64,000 nucleotides of DNA, taken from the NCBI GenBank assembly GCA_027488835.1, contig JAIYAW010000006.1, forward strand, positions 64,556 through 128,555, given 5' to 3'. Positions 25,758 to 36,388 of this stretch are shown here, piece by piece. Under the pieces are notes generated by a model. It saw only the letters and a list, made by a program, of their open reading frames with translations, did no database searches and had not been told where the DNA came from. Each line of letters begins with the position of its first letter. Within the stretch, counting starts at the first letter, position 1. The position numbers and the translations under genes are program-made. This DNA is from Bacteroidota bacterium. GTDB lineage: Bacteria; Bacteroidota; Bacteroidia; NS11-12g; UBA955.

Positions 25758-28700
25758 GTGTTTGAAGTTCTTAAATATCGTCATCATTTTGTATGCTACC
25801 GTCTGTGGGTAATGGCTTTGATTACAATATTTTCAGTGAATTTATTAAACGCACAAGCAAAATTTACAGCGAGTAATACCAGGGGATGTACCCCTTTAAC
25901 TATAGCTTTTACGGATTTATCGGCTGGGGCTGTTAGTTGGAGTTGGGATTTGGGAAATGGCAATACAAGTGTCCTTCAAAATCCTTCTGCGATTTATTAT
26001 AATCCCGGAAAATACACAATTAAATTAATTGCTACAGATTCCAAAGGAAATAAAACAACCTTCACGCAAACCAATTTTATAACCGCATATAAGTCGCCTA
26101 AAGCGAATTTTATATATACCCCAGCATCAATTTGCGCGGGTAAATCAATTAGTTTTACAGAAAGCTGCACCGCCGGAGATACCGCTATCGTAAAATATAG
26201 TTGGGATATGGGTGATGGTACTGTTTTAAATACCAAAAATCCCAATCATCAATATAAATCAAGTGGACAATTTTCGGTTTCGTTGGTAGTTACTGATGGA
26301 CATGGTTGTCAAGATAAAATACAACTCAACAATATAATAAAAGTTAATCCAAATCCGGTTGCAGCATTTGGTATTGATTCTGGTTATGATTGCGTTGTGC
26401 CAACTTGGATACCGTTTGTGAATAAAAGCATCGGAACAGGGCTAACCTATAAATGGTATTTTGGTGATGGAACTACAAGTAATTTGAGAAATCCACGTCA
26501 CAAATATTCAGCATTAGGCACTTACACTGTTTCATTAAAAGTAATGGATGCTTCGGGTTGCTCTGATTCATTTGCCTTTGTGAATGGTTTATATTTGGGA
26601 CCTTTAAAAGCAGATTTCTTGGCTGATAAAACTATATTTTGTGGTCCAGGTTTGGTGAATTTTGACAATAAAAGTACGTTTAACGGTGGATTAAAATTTG
26701 AATGGGATTTTGGAGATGGCATAAAATCAACCAAGGCTTTTCCTTCGCATATTTATAACAATGCGGGTATTTATGCTGTTAGTCTGAAAGTTCAATCTAT
26801 TTTTAGATCTTGTTCGGCACAATTAACTAAAAACAATTATATCAGAATTAATCCAAAACCCAATGGTAAAATAGTATTGAAAGATTCATTTCCTTGTCCT
26901 ATTCCATTTGATATTGAAGCTACATATTTAGATACAGCTAAAATTAAGTCAATTCAATGGTTTGCCAAAGTAGATATGGGTTCTTATACCGCGCGGTATT
27001 ATTTGGGAAATACAAATCCCTTAAAAACCAAAATTGGAAATAAGGCAATCAACGATATAGTTGCAGTTGTTACTAATGAATATGGTTGTACCGATTCAAT
27101 AGTATACGAGAATTTACAAACCAACATTACATCAATTACGCCAATTGGGGTTGTGTCTGGATGTGTGCCATTCTTATTTGTTGGGGACATGAATGTTTCA
27201 ACAAACCGTCAAATTATGGGCTATGGTTGGGACTTTGGAAACAACGATATTTATTATACAAAAAAGGTAAAACGGTTATTTTTAGACACTGGCACATTTA
27301 TAGTGAAGGCATTTGTTAAAACCTATAAGAATTGTATAACTGAAAGGAATTTTACGGTTAAAGTGGGCATGAAAACAAATCCGCGGTTTTTTACAGATAG
27401 GCATGGATTAATTTGTAACAACACGGATCCAATCAAATTTGTAAATGCCACCAAATATCCGGGTTTTACCATTGATAGTTTTCGTTGGGTATTTGATGAT
27501 TCTTCTAATAAATCATCAGTGGCCATGATTAAGCCATGGGGAAAATTGCCAACTCCATATTCCAAAACCAATATTAAACATACCTATGACAGAGATACAG
27601 GATGGGTAGTTCCCCAGCTTATTTCTTATCACAATGGATGTCCTGATACTGCCTTTCAGATTGATTCATTTAAAGTAGTTGCGGCTTATGCCAAAGTTTT
27701 ATATAGTTACGATATTTGTAATACTAAAAAGCTTTATGTAACAAATGTTTCTTCTAAATATACGGATTTTAAATGGTTCATCGATGGTAAATCGTATTAT
27801 ACTGACTCAGTAGAATTAGATCCATCAAAATACCATAATGTTATTTTAAGGGTTTGGGATGATTCAAGTGGTTGTTGGGATACTGTGCAACCATATTTTG
27901 TAACACCGCCATCTCCAATTGGGAGAATTACAGTTCTCAATTCAAAATTATGTGCTCCTGGTTTTGCGAGTCTTTCTGTAGATGGATTTTCTGCAAACAC
28001 TGTAAGTTGGAATATCAACGGCAAGGATACCGCAATTGGAAAAACGGCATTTAATTTTAAATTTGATTCAGCTGGCGTTTATGTTATAAAACTCATTGTG
28101 AACTATACAAAGTATTGTAAACAATATGATAGTTTGACATTTGAAGTTGGCGAATCCAATTTAAAGGGTTCTGTTGTTTATCCTACAACTTGTTTGCCTG
28201 CGGAAATTACCTTAATTGACAGTAGTTTTTCATCGAATAAGAAACATTTGTGGATTTTGAGTAACGGTGACACCCTGCGAATTAATTCAACCAATACAAA
28301 ATATACCGTACAAAATTCATTTAAAGACACACTTTGGGCACGGTTAATTACTGAAGGTACTTCTATTTGTGAGCCGAGTACCTTAATTCCAATTCCAATA
28401 AAAGGTCCTGGATTTAAAACAAGACTTATTTGGGAGCATACTTGCTCTACAAGCAACTTGAAGGGGTATATTGATAAGAAGCGTTTGTCTGATGTTTACA
28501 TATATTCTTGGGACATGGGAGACGGAAAAAAGTATACAAGCCAAAACATTAATCACAAATATGCCGATTCAGGTTATTACACCGTTACAATTGTGGTTAC
28601 AGATGGATCGAACTGTTATGCAAAGCAACAATATCAAGTTTATTTTCCTGGTGAGCGTTTAAAGGTGAGGGTAAATTATACCACGGTTGGGACCAAATGT

Positions 28701-31070
28701 CCACCCATGTTGGTCAATTTTAGAGATTCTAGTTTGTCTTCAAATGTGTCTATACGGAAATGGCTTTGGGATTTTGGAGATAATAGCACTTCAGTTTTAC
28801 AACATCCAAGTCACCAATATTTGAATCCGGGGAAATATACCATTTCGTTGACCATTACTGATTCTTTGGGATGTTCAAATAGCAAAACCTTTTTGTATTT
28901 AATTTTGGTTCCTGGACCTGATGGAAAATTTACTTTTTCTCCGAATAAAGGTTGTTTGCCATTATTGGTAAATTTTAGCGACAGTGTAAATTCGCAAACT
29001 GTTTATAAAGAATGGGATTATGGAGATGGCCTAGTACTTACCGGAAATAATGCTATCCATAAATACAGTGTCCCAGGCAAATACATGCCAGCATTGATTT
29101 TGAAGGATTCATTTGGGTGTAAACGTATAATCAAACCAACAGACACCATTTTTGTATTTGATAATCCGAAAACGCAGTTTACCAAACAAGGATTGTGTTT
29201 GCGTGATTCCATTCAATTCAAATCAACGAGTACTTGTTCTGATGCGCCTATCTCCATGGTGAAATGGAATTTCTTGAATGAAAATTTCAGTGTTTTTGGT
29301 GACTCAATTAAACATAAATTTAGCAATAAAATTAACAATTTAGAGTTGGTAACTAAATCTAAAAATGGATGTTTTGATACAATAAAATTCGGAGTAAAAC
29401 TGTATCAACCTTCCGTTCAAATTGCATCTAACTCAAGTGTAGTTTGCTTGGGCCAAGATTGGTCGGCAAATGCAAAAGTATTTTCAGATACTGCCATTCA
29501 AAATTCGTATTGGTTATTCGATGGATTGCCGAGCCAAAAAGGATTGACGTTTAATTTTGTCCCTCAAAAATCAGATGTTTATCATTTACAATATTTTATT
29601 TCTGATAAATTGGGATGTTGGGACACAGCCAAATCTGAAATTAGAATTCAGGTCGGTGATACAGTTATTCCTTTTGCTCCAACATGGCGAAGGGTGAGTG
29701 TTGTGAACGATATAACGCATGAATTGGTATGGAAAAAATATCCTTCATTTGATTTTTCACAATACATTGTCTATGCCGACAAGGGGGCGGGATTTGTGCC
29801 AATCAATACCTTGTCGAATGTGACAGACACCATCGTTCAAATTGCGGGAGTTGATGCGCTTCGTCGAAGTGATTGCTATAAAATATCAACTACCAATTTG
29901 TGTAAATTTACCCAAAACGAAGTAACATTGAACAAACACTGCACGATTGAACTTCGCGGCAAAGCTGGTTTGAATGCAAGTATTTTAAATTGGGGCAGTT
30001 ATGTTGGTTGGTCAGTTGATAAATATGTAATTTATAGACAAATTGGGGCATCTAATTTTGACAGTATTGGACAAGTGGATGGATCTTATTTGAGTTACAC
30101 CGATACAAGTATCAAATGTTACAAGGTGCATCATTACAAAGTAAAGGCTTATCAAAATGGAGGGTTGAATGAGTTTAGTTGGAGTGATACTTGTCATGTG
30201 TCACCCATTTATTTGAATCAAGTTGCGCCGCCTGAAATGAAGCGTGCAACTGTTTTGAATGATCAATATGTGAGGGTAGAATGGCAACAACTTGTAAAAA
30301 ATAAAATCCCACTTGATCGTTTTGTAATTGTTGGAAAGGAAAATAAATCTAGCAATAAGAATATTTGGATAGTAAATGCCAAGTCTGATTCACTGGTGGT
30401 GAATGACAAATCATTTTCGGTAGATAATACGAATGCCATTTACAAAGTTTTGGGAATTGATGAATGTGGCGACAGTAGTGAATTCTCTTTGGTTTCGCAA
30501 TCAATTTTGTTAGATGTTTCACTGACTAATCAATATTTTCCATTATTGCAATGGAATAAATATGTTGAATGGGCAGAGGGTGTGAAAGAGTATGTTGTTG
30601 AGAGAAACAGTGGAAATGGATTGGTTGAAATTGATAGAATTCCAGCTTCTGATTCAATTTATATTGACCCTTTGCCTAGTTTAAACTGTTTGCCGAAGTT
30701 AGAATATCGAATTACTGCGTTAAGAAATAAAACAGTTGGAGCTGATAGTTCTTGGTTTAACGCCAGTTGTAGCAATGTTGATGATCCAGGTGTGAAAACG
30801 AAAGTATTTATTCCCAATGCATTTACACCTAACGGAAATAATTTAAATGAATTATTTAAGCCAGAGGGTATCTTTATTGCAAATTACACCATGAAAATAC
30901 TTAACCGTTGGGGAGAGAAGGTTTTTGAGGGACAAGGATGTGGCAGTGGTTGGGATGGTTTTTACAAGACTGAAATTGTACCTTCTGGTGTATATATTTA
31001 CATTTTAAATGTCAAAGGAACCGATGGCAAATGGTATCCATTTAGCGGCGATGTAACTGTTTTGCGCTAA
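25758..31070 (+). CDS. Giant PKD-repeat T9SS substrate with gliding-motility-type C-terminal domain
   Basis: 1770 residues. The signal peptide ends LLNAQA near residue 33. Translation most likely starts at GTG 25758, since the ATG at 25812 would leave a signal peptide without a basic n-region. At least eight PKD-type motifs are visible: WSWDLGNG near residue 62, YSWDMGDG near 149, KWYFGDG near 233, EWDFGDG near 315, GWDFGNN near 490, YSWDMGDG near 916, WLWDFGDN near 1003 and EWDYGDG near 1084. Residues about 1310-1670 look like fibronectin-III-type strands. The end ([40 protein letters not shown]) is the CHU_C/type B sorting domain. It is likely a surface adhesin or matrix protein; the ligand is unknown. 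Confidence 0.9.
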
Positions 31071-32674: not shown

Positions 32675-33233
32675 ATTTCCATTCAACGCTAACGGCGTTT
32701 CTATGTGCCACAGTTCTTTTTTGGTCTAATCCACCAATAAAGAAGAATCCCAAATGTTCATGCGTTTCCTCGAGCCCTAAATAATCTCTCATTTCTTGGG
32801 TGTTCGTTGCGTTGCCGGTGGTCCAATATCCCCCAAAATCATTTTGTGTATTTAAGGTGAGATACATATTTTGAACAGCAGCGCCAATACTGCAATATTC
32901 TTCCCAAAGAGGAACTTTGAAACTTGGTTTGAGGCAAATAGAAATAATATGAGATGCTTTTTGAGGGATATTTTTGATTTTTGCGATTTTATCTGCTGCC
33001 AATTCTGGATTTTTAGTGATTTGAATTTCTAGAATTTTATTCACTAAGGAATGCATAGAATGTCCTTCGAAAACAACGAAATGCCAAGGCATTGTTAATT
33101 TATGTGAGGGAGCCCAATTTGCATTGTTTATTAAGTTTTCTATCAGAGACTTTGGAGCAATAGCTCCATTGAACTCTTTGGCAAAATGACTACGTCTTGT
33201 TTCAATGAGGTTTGTGATGTCTTCAATTTTCAT
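32673..33233 (-). CDS. Nitroreductase family protein (FMN-dependent)
   Basis: 186 residues of the NfsA/YdjA-like flavin oxidoreductase fold. It opens with ITNLIETRRSHFAKEF, where RRS binds the FMN phosphate. NANWAPSHKLTMPWHFVVFEG follows near residue 53, then GAAVQNMYLTLN and GYWTTG; the tail ends VEWK. The length and WAPSHKLTMPWHF resemble the short YdjA class. The physiological substrate is unknown. The start overlaps the end of the EamA gene by 11 bp, so both are probably made from one transcript behind the attenuator-like leader. Confidence 0.85.
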   Translation of the reverse strand: MKIEDITNLIETRRSHFAKEFNGAIAPKSLIENLINNANWAPSHKLTMPWHFVVFEGHSMHSLVNKILEIQITKNPELAADKIAKIKNIPQKASHIISICLKPSFKVPLWEEYCSIGAAVQNMYLTLNTQNDFGGYWTTGNATNTQEMRDYLGLEETHEHLGFFFIGGLDQKRTVAHRNAVSVEWK

Positions 33234-34167
33234 TTTTTCTGAGGGCTAAAATTGGATTGATAAAGATGGCACCAATAATGATGAGTGTGCCAATATAAAA
33301 CTTCATGCTGAGATCGTTGTTTTCATGGAAAATTAATATTCCTAAAATAATTCCATAGATAGGCTCCAGATTTACGGTTAGATTGGCAGTGAAGGCGCTG
33401 AGGTATTTTAACGAATATGTTCCCAAATAAAATGTAAGGTTGGTGCAAAAAATAGCGAGTACAAGAACCCAAATCAAATCGAGTGAGCCATTTTGTAAAT
33501 GCTGAGGATCAAACTTTGAAATATCTAGTTGAGGATACCATATCGTATTTTCAGTACTAAGTGGAACAACAATAGAAAGCAATATAGCTCCAGCGAGCAT
33601 CTCTATTGCGCTAATTGTCAATGGATGTGACTTCTCAATGTTTTTCTTATTTAGCGTTGTAAATAAGGCTGCCAAAGCTGCGCTGATTAATCCAGTTGCT
33701 ATAGCTGCGGGATACGAAATGTTTGCACTGGTATTTTCGGGAAGAGAAAAACTAATAAACAAAACGCCAATAATAACCACCATTCCAATAAGAATATCTT
33801 TTTTTATAAATTTCGATTTAAGAATAATGGGTTCAATAATTGCGGCAAAAAACGAAGCTGATCCCAAACAAGCGAGTGTAATTGAAACTGAATTTCCAAG
33901 TTTGATACTTCCGTAGAATGTAAGCCAATGGGCGCAAACGATAATTCCAATTCCGAAAAAGGTACGAAAATGAGCAAATGAAATGGTTTTTAATCCTTTC
34001 CAAACTGTTGGAAGAAGAAAATAAGCGATAGCGGCAATTGACATTCTGTGCCATACAAGCGTAGTAGAACCATAGGAAATAAGTTTGCCAAAAATGGCAG
34101 TAAATCCCCAAAGAAAAACTGCAATATGAAGAAAAAATAGGGCTTTAAAGTTTTGGGATTTTTTCAC
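33223..34167 (-). CDS. EamA/DMT superfamily transporter
   Basis: 314 residues with about ten hydrophobic spans in two EamA repeats (HIAVFLWGFTAIFGKLI near residue 13; AALAALFTTLNKKNIEKSHPLTISAIEMLAGAILL and NLTVNLEPIYGIILGILIFHE in the second half). Family members are inner-membrane exporters of amino acids or other metabolites. Translation starts at GTG 34167, only 11 nt after the T-run of the leader terminator, so expression probably depends on read-through. The 3' end overlaps the nitroreductase gene by 11 bp. Confidence 0.9.
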   Translation of the reverse strand: MKKSQNFKALFFLHIAVFLWGFTAIFGKLISYGSTTLVWHRMSIAAIAYFLLPTVWKGLKTISFAHFRTFFGIGIIVCAHWLTFYGSIKLGNSVSITLACLGSASFFAAIIEPIILKSKFIKKDILIGMVVIIGVLFISFSLPENTSANISYPAAIATGLISAALAALFTTLNKKNIEKSHPLTISAIEMLAGAILLSIVVPLSTENTIWYPQLDISKFDPQHLQNGSLDLIWVLVLAIFCTNLTFYLGTYSLKYLSAFTANLTVNLEPIYGIILGILIFHENNDLSMKFYIGTLIIIGAIFINPILALRKNEN

Positions 34168-34178
34168 GGTATGGCTTT

Positions 34179-34210
34179 AAAAAATCAAGGCCGCGCTAGA
34201 AGGCACGGCC
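34179..34210 (-). terminator. Intrinsic terminator in the EamA leader
   Basis: On the minus strand, GGCCGTGC and GCGCGGCC form an 8-bp stem with one G-T pair around a 6-nt loop, followed by TTGATTTTTT. It sits between the promoter box at 34274 and the EamA start at 34167. Confidence 0.8.
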
Positions 34211-34267
34211 AGGATGTTGTTGGTATTATAAAAGCGCGTAACAGTTGGCGTTACCGAATAAACGATA
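34179..34267 (-). ncRNA. Attenuator-like leader or small RNA upstream of the EamA gene
   Basis: A predicted transcript from the TATATTTG box would run leftward about 90 nt and end in a strong intrinsic terminator. Two hairpins are visible: 34238-34254 (GTAAC / GTTAC, 7-nt loop) and the GC-rich terminator stem 34189-34210. Bases 34233-34238 are perfectly complementary over 6 nt to 34192-34197, inside the terminator 3' arm, which gives a possible antiterminator. No ATG-started leader peptide is present. Its closeness to the GTG at 34167 favours attenuation; an independent sRNA is the alternative. Confidence 0.5.
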
Positions 34268-34273
34268 ACAATA

Positions 34274-34281
34274 CAAATATA
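34274..34281 (-). promoter_or_regulatory. Promoter -7 box of the EamA leader
   Basis: TATATTTG on the minus strand, a perfect TAnnTTTG, 106 nt upstream of the EamA start and about 64 nt upstream of the terminator stem. Confidence 0.55.
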
Positions 34282-34326
34282 CGGCACCAAAATTATTAAA
34301 TCAAGTAGAAATGAGTAAAAAAATAG

Positions 34327-35406
34327 TTAATTATATTTTCCTTTGAATTTGTCCTTTATTTCATTCACTATGTTTCGCAATTCTTGTTCTTTGTCTTTGT
34401 TCATGATCAGTAGCACGTCGTCTGAATCAACCACCACCACATTTTCTAAGCCGCTAATTACCAATAGTTTATCATTGTTCGAGAAAACCAAACTTTCATT
34501 TGATTGATAAGCGCGAATATTGTTGCCTATTAAACTATTATTTGAACTGTCTTTTTTAGACACATCCCACAAACTTTTCCACGTACCAAGATCACTCCAA
34601 CCAAAGTTAGAGGGCAGAACAAAAACGTTCTTGTCTTTTTCCATAATTCCATAGTCAATTGAAATGCTTGGACATTGGCCATAGGTTATTTCTAATTCAT
34701 TTGAAATATTTGGGGAATTAAAATCCAATTCACTAAAAAGTTGGTGAATTTCAGGCAACAGGAGTTCGAATCTACCGGCTATTGCCTTTAGGCTCCAAAC
34801 AAAAATACCCGCATTCCATAAAAATTCACCACTTTCAATAAAGCTCTTTGCAATTTCTTCAGTTGGTTTTTCTGTGAATGTTTTTACCTCATGAATTCCG
34901 GTAGATTTGGCTTTGGGATTGTATTGAATATAGCCATAACCGGTATCTGGGCGACTAGGTTGAATTCCCAAAGTTACCAAAGCATCATTTTCTGCAGCAA
35001 AATCTAAAGCCTTCAAAGAAGTTTCAATGAACTGATTTTCTTGGGTAATTAAATGATCTGATGGGGCAATTATACAAATTGCATTTGGATTAATCTGCTT
35101 TAACTTATAAGTTGCCAAGGCAATACAAGGTGCTGTGTTGCGGGCCAATGGTTCTTCAAGTATTTGATTTCGTTGGATAGTAGGAATATGCGTTTGAACC
35201 AATTCAACGTAATCTTTGTTTGTAACGATATAAATGTTTTCCTCAGGAATAAATTCCGCAAAACGCAAGTATGTTTGGGTAATTAATGATTGTCCCGTTC
35301 CCAAAATATCCATGAATTGTTTAGGGAAGTTCTTTTTACTTACTGGCCAAAATCGTGATCCGATTCCGCCGGCCATAATAATTACGTAATGGTTCTTGTT
35401 TTTCAT
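34327..35406 (-). CDS. Mannose-1-phosphate guanylyltransferase
   Basis: Makes GDP-mannose from mannose-1-phosphate and GTP, for glycan and O-antigen synthesis. The 359-residue protein has the nucleotidyltransferase signature MAGGIGSRFWPVSKKNFPKQFMDILG near the N-terminus, then EPLARNTAPCIALA, APSDHLI, FTEKP and SIDYGIMEKDKNVFVLPSNFGWSDLGTWKSLW. It lacks the C-terminal cupin isomerase domain of bifunctional ManC. ATG 35406 gives MKNKNHYVIIMAGG and lies 7 nt after the upstream isomerase gene; an ATG at 35442 would overlap that gene. The two form an operon for sugar-nucleotide supply. Confidence 0.93.
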   Translation of the reverse strand: MKNKNHYVIIMAGGIGSRFWPVSKKNFPKQFMDILGTGQSLITQTYLRFAEFIPEENIYIVTNKDYVELVQTHIPTIQRNQILEEPLARNTAPCIALATYKLKQINPNAICIIAPSDHLITQENQFIETSLKALDFAAENDALVTLGIQPSRPDTGYGYIQYNPKAKSTGIHEVKTFTEKPTEEIAKSFIESGEFLWNAGIFVWSLKAIAGRFELLLPEIHQLFSELDFNSPNISNELEITYGQCPSISIDYGIMEKDKNVFVLPSNFGWSDLGTWKSLWDVSKKDSSNNSLIGNNIRAYQSNESLVFSNNDKLLVISGLENVVVVDSDDVLLIMNKDKEQELRNIVNEIKDKFKGKYN

Positions 35407-35413
35407 TTTTAGA

Positions 35414-36388
35414 TTAAATAATGCCTTCAGAATATAAGTCATGCAGATGTATTAACCCTAAATATTGGTTGTTTTTAGTAACAATAAGTTGGGTTATTTT
35501 CTTGTCTTGCATAAACTGACCTGCTTTTGCGGCAAGTGAATCTGCATCAATTGATAGCGGATTCATTGACATAATATTTTGTGCGGTTAAATTAGAGAAA
35601 TTTTCAAATTTATTGAGCATTCTTCTGATGTCGCCATCGGTAATAATGCCTAATATGTTGTTTTGATTATCAATTACTGCAGTTGCGCCAAGACGGCTCT
35701 CTGTAATAGTAACAATTACTTTTTTCCAAGGATCGGTAGGTAAAACCTGAGGTTTGGCATTTTTTGTTGCAATTTCCTCACATTTTAAATATAATTTTTT
35801 TCCGAGTGCTCCTCCTGGGTGGTATTTGGAAAAATCTTGTCCTGAAAAATTTCTAAGTTGTAACAAAGAAACAGCTATAGCGTCGCCCATAATTAATTGG
35901 GCAGTGGTACTGGTGGTGGGTGCTAAATTATTTGGGCAAGCTTCTTTGTCAACAGTGGTATCGATAACCAAATCAGCCATTTTTGCCAATTCAGAATTCA
36001 TATTACCGACTATTGCCACCAATGTATTGCCAAACTGCTTCAATAAGGGAGCAAGTGCTTTAATTTCAGGTGTATTTCCACTTTTCGATATGGCAACTAT
36101 AACATCATTTTTTTGTATCATTCCCAAATCGCCATGAATGGCATCGGCTGCATGCATGAATAGGGCGGGCTGACCCGTGCTGTTCATTGTTGCGCTGATT
36201 TTTTGAGCAATGATTGCACTTTTACCAATTCCTGTCAAAACCACTCTTCCCTCAGAAGCCAATATAATTTCGATGGCTTTGATAAAGTCGTTTTGAATAA
36301 ATGAAGGCAAAACTTGCAACGATGTTAATTCGTTTTGAATTGCTTCAACTGCGACTTTTTGAATGATATGGTGTTGATTTTTATCCAA
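35414..36388 (-). CDS. kdsD: Arabinose-5-phosphate isomerase (KdsD/KpsF)
   Basis: Converts ribulose-5-phosphate to arabinose-5-phosphate, the first step to Kdo of LPS. The 324 residues comprise a SIS domain (VVLTGIGKSAIIAQKISATMNSTGQPALFMHAADAIHGDLGMI; ISKSGNTPE) and two CBS domains (about residues 205-324, ending LGLIHLHDLYSEGI). The translation start appears to be TTG 36388: the frame has a TAA 24 bases upstream and no ATG before the fold. Paired with the GDP-mannose enzyme gene, it supports a role in surface polysaccharide. Confidence 0.93.
   Translation of the reverse strand: MDKNQHHIIQKVAVEAIQNELTSLQVLPSFIQNDFIKAIEIILASEGRVVLTGIGKSAIIAQKISATMNSTGQPALFMHAADAIHGDLGMIQKNDVIVAISKSGNTPEIKALAPLLKQFGNTLVAIVGNMNSELAKMADLVIDTTVDKEACPNNLAPTTSTTAQLIMGDAIAVSLLQLRNFSGQDFSKYHPGGALGKKLYLKCEEIATKNAKPQVLPTDPWKKVIVTITESRLGATAVIDNQNNILGIITDGDIRRMLNKFENFSNLTAQNIMSMNPLSIDADSLAAKAGQFMQDKKITQLIVTKNNQYLGLIHLHDLYSEGII

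Follow-up and report, generated by a model that had tools for sequence, protein, structure and literature searches.

A conserved, previously undescribed RNA family beside an EamA transporter gene in uncultured Bacteroidota

What is encoded in the short intergenic stretch that precedes an EamA transporter gene in an uncultured member of the Bacteroidota: a leader that switches the transporter on and off, or a small RNA gene in its own right? The preliminary description of the 64,000-nt stretch of DNA analysed here (the window) had proposed an attenuator-like leader with mutually exclusive terminator and antiterminator pairings. Taken as a whole, that interpretation is partly supported, and the RNA resembles a small regulatory RNA more closely than the proposed on/off leader switch.

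Anatomy of the locus and the predicted transcript

Read 5' to 3' on the minus strand, the locus consists of a TTG element, 20 bp, the -7 box TATATTTG, a hairpin, a single G, the core, the terminator and, after a further 11 nt, the GTG of the EamA gene (Table 1). The -7 box had been placed correctly in the preliminary description and matches the sigma-A consensus TAnnTTTG, which in Flavobacterium psychrophilum occupies positions -12 to -5 relative to the start site (PMC9723704). Because of that position, transcription is expected to begin at G34269, 4 nt past the box, on the base that opens the 5' hairpin. The resulting predicted RNA agrees with the transcript of about 90 nt suggested earlier and measures 83-91 nt among relatives. 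Across 33 distinct upstream regions, the -7 box reads TATATTTG in 31 and TATTTTTG in one, the exception being TATATTCG in the remaining one (L102), while a TTG is spaced 17-21 bp from the box in 29 of 32 distinct promoters.

Table 1. Coordinates of the RNA locus and of its flanking genes in the window
Feature	Position	Strand	Details
ManC-like mannose-1-phosphate guanylyltransferase	34327-35442	minus	Conserved upstream neighbour
-33 element TTG	34302-34304	minus	20 bp before the -7 box of the RNA promoter
-7 box TATATTTG	34274-34281	minus	Bacteroidota sigma-A type TAnnTTTG
Predicted RNA, about 91 nt	34179-34269	minus	Promoter/terminator anatomy and covariance-model matches
5' hairpin	34250-34269	minus	7-bp stem and variable loop, GTTATCG TTTATT CGGTAAC
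Nearly invariant single-stranded core CCAACTGTTACGCGCTTTTATAATACCAACAACATCC	34212-34248	minus	37 nt in the window
Intrinsic terminator	34179-34215	minus	AUC/GAU pairs, CU/UU internal loop, GGCCGYG stem, tail UUGAUUUUUU
EamA transporter gene	33223-34167	minus	PF00892, E 3.7e-27; GTG at 34167-34165, 11 nt past the T-run

The terminator stem extends from 34210 to 34189 and is followed by the T-run TTGATTTTTT down to 34179, the letters in the window being TGGCCGTGCC TTCT AGCGCGGCC TTGATTTTTT. Both the strong terminator just before EamA and the identity of the transporter stand as previously described, and the two hairpins noted at that time are present in the minus-strand fold, which has a folding energy of -28.8 kcal/mol (z -2.75).

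With regard to the flanking genes, ManC shares the strand of the RNA and ends about 46 nt ahead of the -7 box. In all carriers with enough flanking DNA, the arrangement is KdsD-ManC-RNA-EamA(-nitroreductase), surrounded by RecQ and ProS. Since this order is fixed on both sides, the closeness of the RNA to EamA partly reflects mere gene order. The distance from the T-run to the EamA start is 6-32 nt in every distinct adjacent case examined, which leaves no room for a promoter after the terminator, so that EamA would be transcribed by read-through from the RNA promoter or from ManC, and a cis effect on EamA through such read-through is possible.

The RNA was never found apart from the EamA operon, and the association nevertheless loosens in several genomes. 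In one of them (G024), a patatin-like gene (PF01734) that starts about 60 nt past the T-run is inserted between EamA and an RNA whose core equals the consensus exactly; this makes a cis role there less likely, although the RNA still heads a same-strand patatin-EamA run. In two others (G054 and G040), ManC adjoins EamA and the RNA is missing, and in a further genome (G104, contig L102) decay has reached the -7 box (TATATTCG), core (CTTAC, ATCTA) and tail alike, beside an open EamA frame. Given these losses and this decay, EamA can do without the RNA.

Elsewhere in the window, 25758-31070 on the plus strand encodes a protein of 1770 aa in which many PKD domains are combined with a CHU_C type IX secretion signal at the C-terminus; it is probably secreted and forms a large surface protein.

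Conservation, covariation and distribution

The preliminary description had named compensatory change in related genomes as the check on its structure, and such changes are present in both the 5' hairpin and the terminator stem. In an alignment of 26 distinct sequences, set against 500 shuffled controls, 99.3% of cells hold standard pairs, and eight pairs are changed on both sides as compared with 3.5 in the shuffles, none of which (0/500) reached as high; for four of the five covariation measures, the observed level was matched by none of the 500 shuffles. The 5' hairpin is paired in 98.9% of cells, with compensatory changes on both sides in six of its seven pairs. The corresponding value for the terminator is 99.6%, with G-C replaced by A-U in a compensatory manner in five distinct sequences, and its variable pairs show compensatory or one-sided changes. 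Because it was made by fitting sequences to the model, the alignment leans towards the structure. The complementarity of the hairpin arms can be seen by eye in unaligned sequences (GTTATCG/CGATAAC, GTTACCC/GGGTAAC, GCTGCCG/CGGCAGC and GTTGTCC/GGGCAAC), and pairing drops to 26-50% in slid controls.

Between the two hairpins, conservation takes another form. Mean pairwise identity amounts to 0.95 and 1.00 in the two core blocks, whereas the terminator reaches 0.70 and the 5' hairpin 0.58. The core, which in other lineages measures 33-34 nt (CCAACUGUUACGCGCUUUUAUAUACCAACAUCC), is predicted to be mostly unpaired and overlaps the terminator foot (AUCCUGG; AUC/GAU pairs). It tolerates changes of length around UAUA-UACC-AACAUCC, with one additional base in some members of genus g1 and four in the window lineage, as well as pyrimidine swaps in CUUUUAUA. 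Insertions giving UAUAAUACCAACAACAUCC, as against UAUAUACCAACAUCC elsewhere, are confined to the window lineage (G000, G008, G010 and G013). Internal pairing cannot explain the conservation of the core, because both loops vary, the core itself is predicted to be unpaired and the alternative pairing is not kept. The near letter-for-letter retention of about 33 unpaired nucleotides is the part left unexplained.

At the DNA level, a search of 97 relatives showed that the stretch from promoter to terminator recurs within the genus and family, with 76-99% identity. Beyond the closest species this identity is 76-89%, most of the adjacent EamA proteins being only 54-63% identical. A covariance model (R1) was searched against 70 genomes of the window's own GTDB family and 38 of the sister family. 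It matched in 38 of the former, distributed over 7 of 14 genera and including the window's own genome (E 3.9e-16), whereas all 38 genomes of the order's other family were without a match. In a class-wide sample of 395, the RNA was found only in the same family, under strict filters that weak homologues could escape. A second model (R2), run with laxer filters on 30 genomes without the RNA, yielded no credible homologue; its weak matches in non-carrier genera and in the sister family were rejected, as what they align to is a GGCCGAGC terminator in AT-rich DNA that has no relation to the RNA. A sister-family genome (G059, contig L269, 1501-1628) holds a bidirectional GGCCGAGC...GCTCGGCC terminator with AT-rich flanks, weakly matched on both strands and lacking the core.

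The RNA is present in one copy per genome, except for two genomes with a second match at a contig end. A scan of contigs with a loose pattern gave mostly unrelated chance matches among the matches listed, and the core pattern was found in none of the viral contigs. The contigs of four carriers (G008, G007, G009 and G056) end in or near the RNA (L004, L025, L010, L075, L018 and L053), and the copy beside ManC in one of them (G009, L075) agrees with the family from the promoter to a point within the core, beyond which about 40 nt differ. This may reflect strain variation, or the RNA gene may be an insertion site.

The comparison with Rfam recommended in the preliminary description returned no known family. 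None of the 4227 families of Rfam 15 matched the locus or five diverse relatives at gathering or permissive thresholds, the best score being that of isrJ with 18.6 bits against a gathering cut-off of 37. Judged from sequence, this is therefore a strongly conserved, previously undescribed RNA family of an ordinary kind in uncultured Bacteroidota, whose promoter, hairpin, core and terminator are retained as one unit in 38 genomes of the family.

Function of the RNA and competing readings

Genome comparison shows a predicted promoter, a folded RNA, a terminator, a nearly invariant core and inheritance at a single locus. The features by which a bacterial intergenic sRNA is recognised, namely its own promoter, an intrinsic terminator and a conserved transcript that is non-coding, are thus all predicted here. 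We place the probability that the locus is the gene of a small non-coding RNA, about 90 nt long and recognised through a single-stranded core, at roughly 55%. The RNA would be made as a free, terminated transcript with its ends protected by the hairpins, and would act in trans, its core being recognised without Hfq by a partner, either through short base pairing with an mRNA or by an RNA-binding protein. Incomplete termination of transcripts from the RNA promoter or from the KdsD-ManC operon may supply EamA, for which the RNA would also serve as a passive leader. The sRNA reading is supported by the retention of the unit in 38 genomes with covariation of the first hairpin and the terminator, by core conservation beyond what internal pairing can account for, by the low copy number, by the separation of the RNA and EamA in G024, G054, G040 and G104, by a gene order in which the adjacency to EamA is only one part, and by the failure to find Hfq in the order together with the precedent of Bacteroides, where sRNAs made of a conserved single-stranded region and a terminator work (FopS, PMC11697453). 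It is weakened by a core that exceeds the usual seed length, by the constant position of the RNA beside the EamA operon, with 6-32 nt from terminator to start, by an RRM distribution that does not follow that of the RNA, and by target searches that gave no candidate.

In these searches, the most invariant 11 nt, GCGCGTAACAG, were represented by the 11-mer complementary to CTGTTACGCGC, which is confined to the RNA gene in 12 of 14 genomes. Longer complements of the core, with mismatches allowed, gave scattered matches and no shared site outside conserved coding sequence. One antisense match common to two genomes was rejected, since it falls within a long, conserved reading frame and is explained by protein conservation. 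A long conserved antisense target therefore seems unlikely, which leaves recognition of the core by short seeds, by G-U pairing or by a protein. Regarding the latter, Hfq (PF17209) was found in none of the 108 genomes of the order by a search that was positive in five control genomes, and RRM proteins (PF00076) were found in some carriers and not in others, including the window's genome, and do not track with the RNA.

The reading closest to the earlier proposal is a cis attenuator of EamA, in which the core would be bound by a protein or, with lower likelihood, by a small molecule or trans RNA, and termination would thereby be altered, with EamA made only when required. This we regard as possible, if rather doubtful. 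It draws on the invariable position upstream of the EamA operon, on the short distance to EamA without promoter room in all distinct adjacent cases examined, and on the contact of the invariant core with the terminator foot; adjacency is nonetheless weak evidence where gene order is fixed on both sides, the element occurs at one locus only, EamA persists where the RNA is lost, and in G024 the patatin gene intervenes. The pairing behind the proposed switch is not conserved either. The 6-nt complementarity on which it had been based (34233-34238 with 34192-34197, CGCGCT/AGCGCG) is indeed present in the window, yet a count covering this pairing revealed no compensatory change, and its six pairs are broken in 0-10 of the 26 sequences, because the 3' arm of the terminator drifts while the core stays. 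A riboswitch finds no support, as the RNA offers a 7-bp hairpin, a terminator and an unpaired core in place of a covarying multi-helix, aptamer-like fold. Thus, where the preliminary description had left the choice between a sensing element and an sRNA, the latter is favoured, and ligand sensing finds no support in a single-locus RNA without a structured aptamer. A ribosome-mediated leader-peptide attenuator is likewise unsupported: the absence of an ATG start codon reported earlier is upheld, and no reading frame could be conserved across the 1-nt and 4-nt indels in the core.

A new type of attenuator or titration RNA, whose unstructured, nearly invariant core of about 33 nt would be read by a protein independent of Hfq and RRM, setting EamA read-through or sequestering that protein, is unlikely. 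The proposal that the element is mainly the terminator and 3' end of the KdsD-ManC operon, yielding a 3'-UTR-derived RNA by-product with the core as a site for mRNA processing or a protein, fits the same-strand ManC end just before the -7 box and the presence of ManC upstream in every case with a long enough contig, G024 included; it is made improbable by the strictly conserved promoter that the RNA has of its own, placed after ManC and with a start at the hairpin base, and by an invariant 33-nt core for which a plain terminator would have no use. Conservation of the core as DNA, for instance as a repressor or roadblock site just past the promoter, or else as a very short reading frame, would agree with its location about 20-55 nt past the start site and its almost absolute nucleotide identity. 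Such an origin is very improbable, however, given the covarying hairpins on either side, the lack of an evident palindrome or a start codon, and indels that break every frame.

Relation to known systems

The locus adds a well-supported new RNA family in uncultured Bacteroidota where Hfq is not found, with a seed alignment ready for an Rfam entry and an invariant core that offers a concrete handle on Hfq-free small RNA action in these bacteria. As an RNA leader ahead of EamA transporter genes, it recalls the ykkC subtype 2d orphan riboswitch, which is found upstream of EamA and TauE genes (PMC7266159), from which it differs in having no Rfam match or structured aptamer-like domain and in its restriction to one locus and one family. 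The independent sRNAs of Flavobacterium psychrophilum such as Rfp18 (PMC9723704) are independent transcripts conserved within a lineage, in a species with TAnnTTTG promoters; they belong to another lineage, and the likeness lies in predicted independent transcription, promoter type and conservation.

The closest parallel is that of FopS/GibS in Bacteroides thetaiotaomicron (PMC11697453), likewise a member of the Hfq-less Bacteroidota, in which a conserved single-stranded stretch is followed by an intrinsic terminator; FopS, like the RNA here, has a canonical sigma-A type promoter. FopS comprises 14 paralogues, with a consensus made of a single-stranded 5' stretch and a terminator without a 5' hairpin, and has been linked to RbpB and PUL mRNAs (PMC11697453). 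In contrast, the RNA described here is single-copy, carries a covarying 5' hairpin and shows no co-occurrence with RRM proteins; the two are likened by architecture. By this analogy, the RNA would work like the Hfq-independent sRNAs of the Bacteroidota such as FopS.
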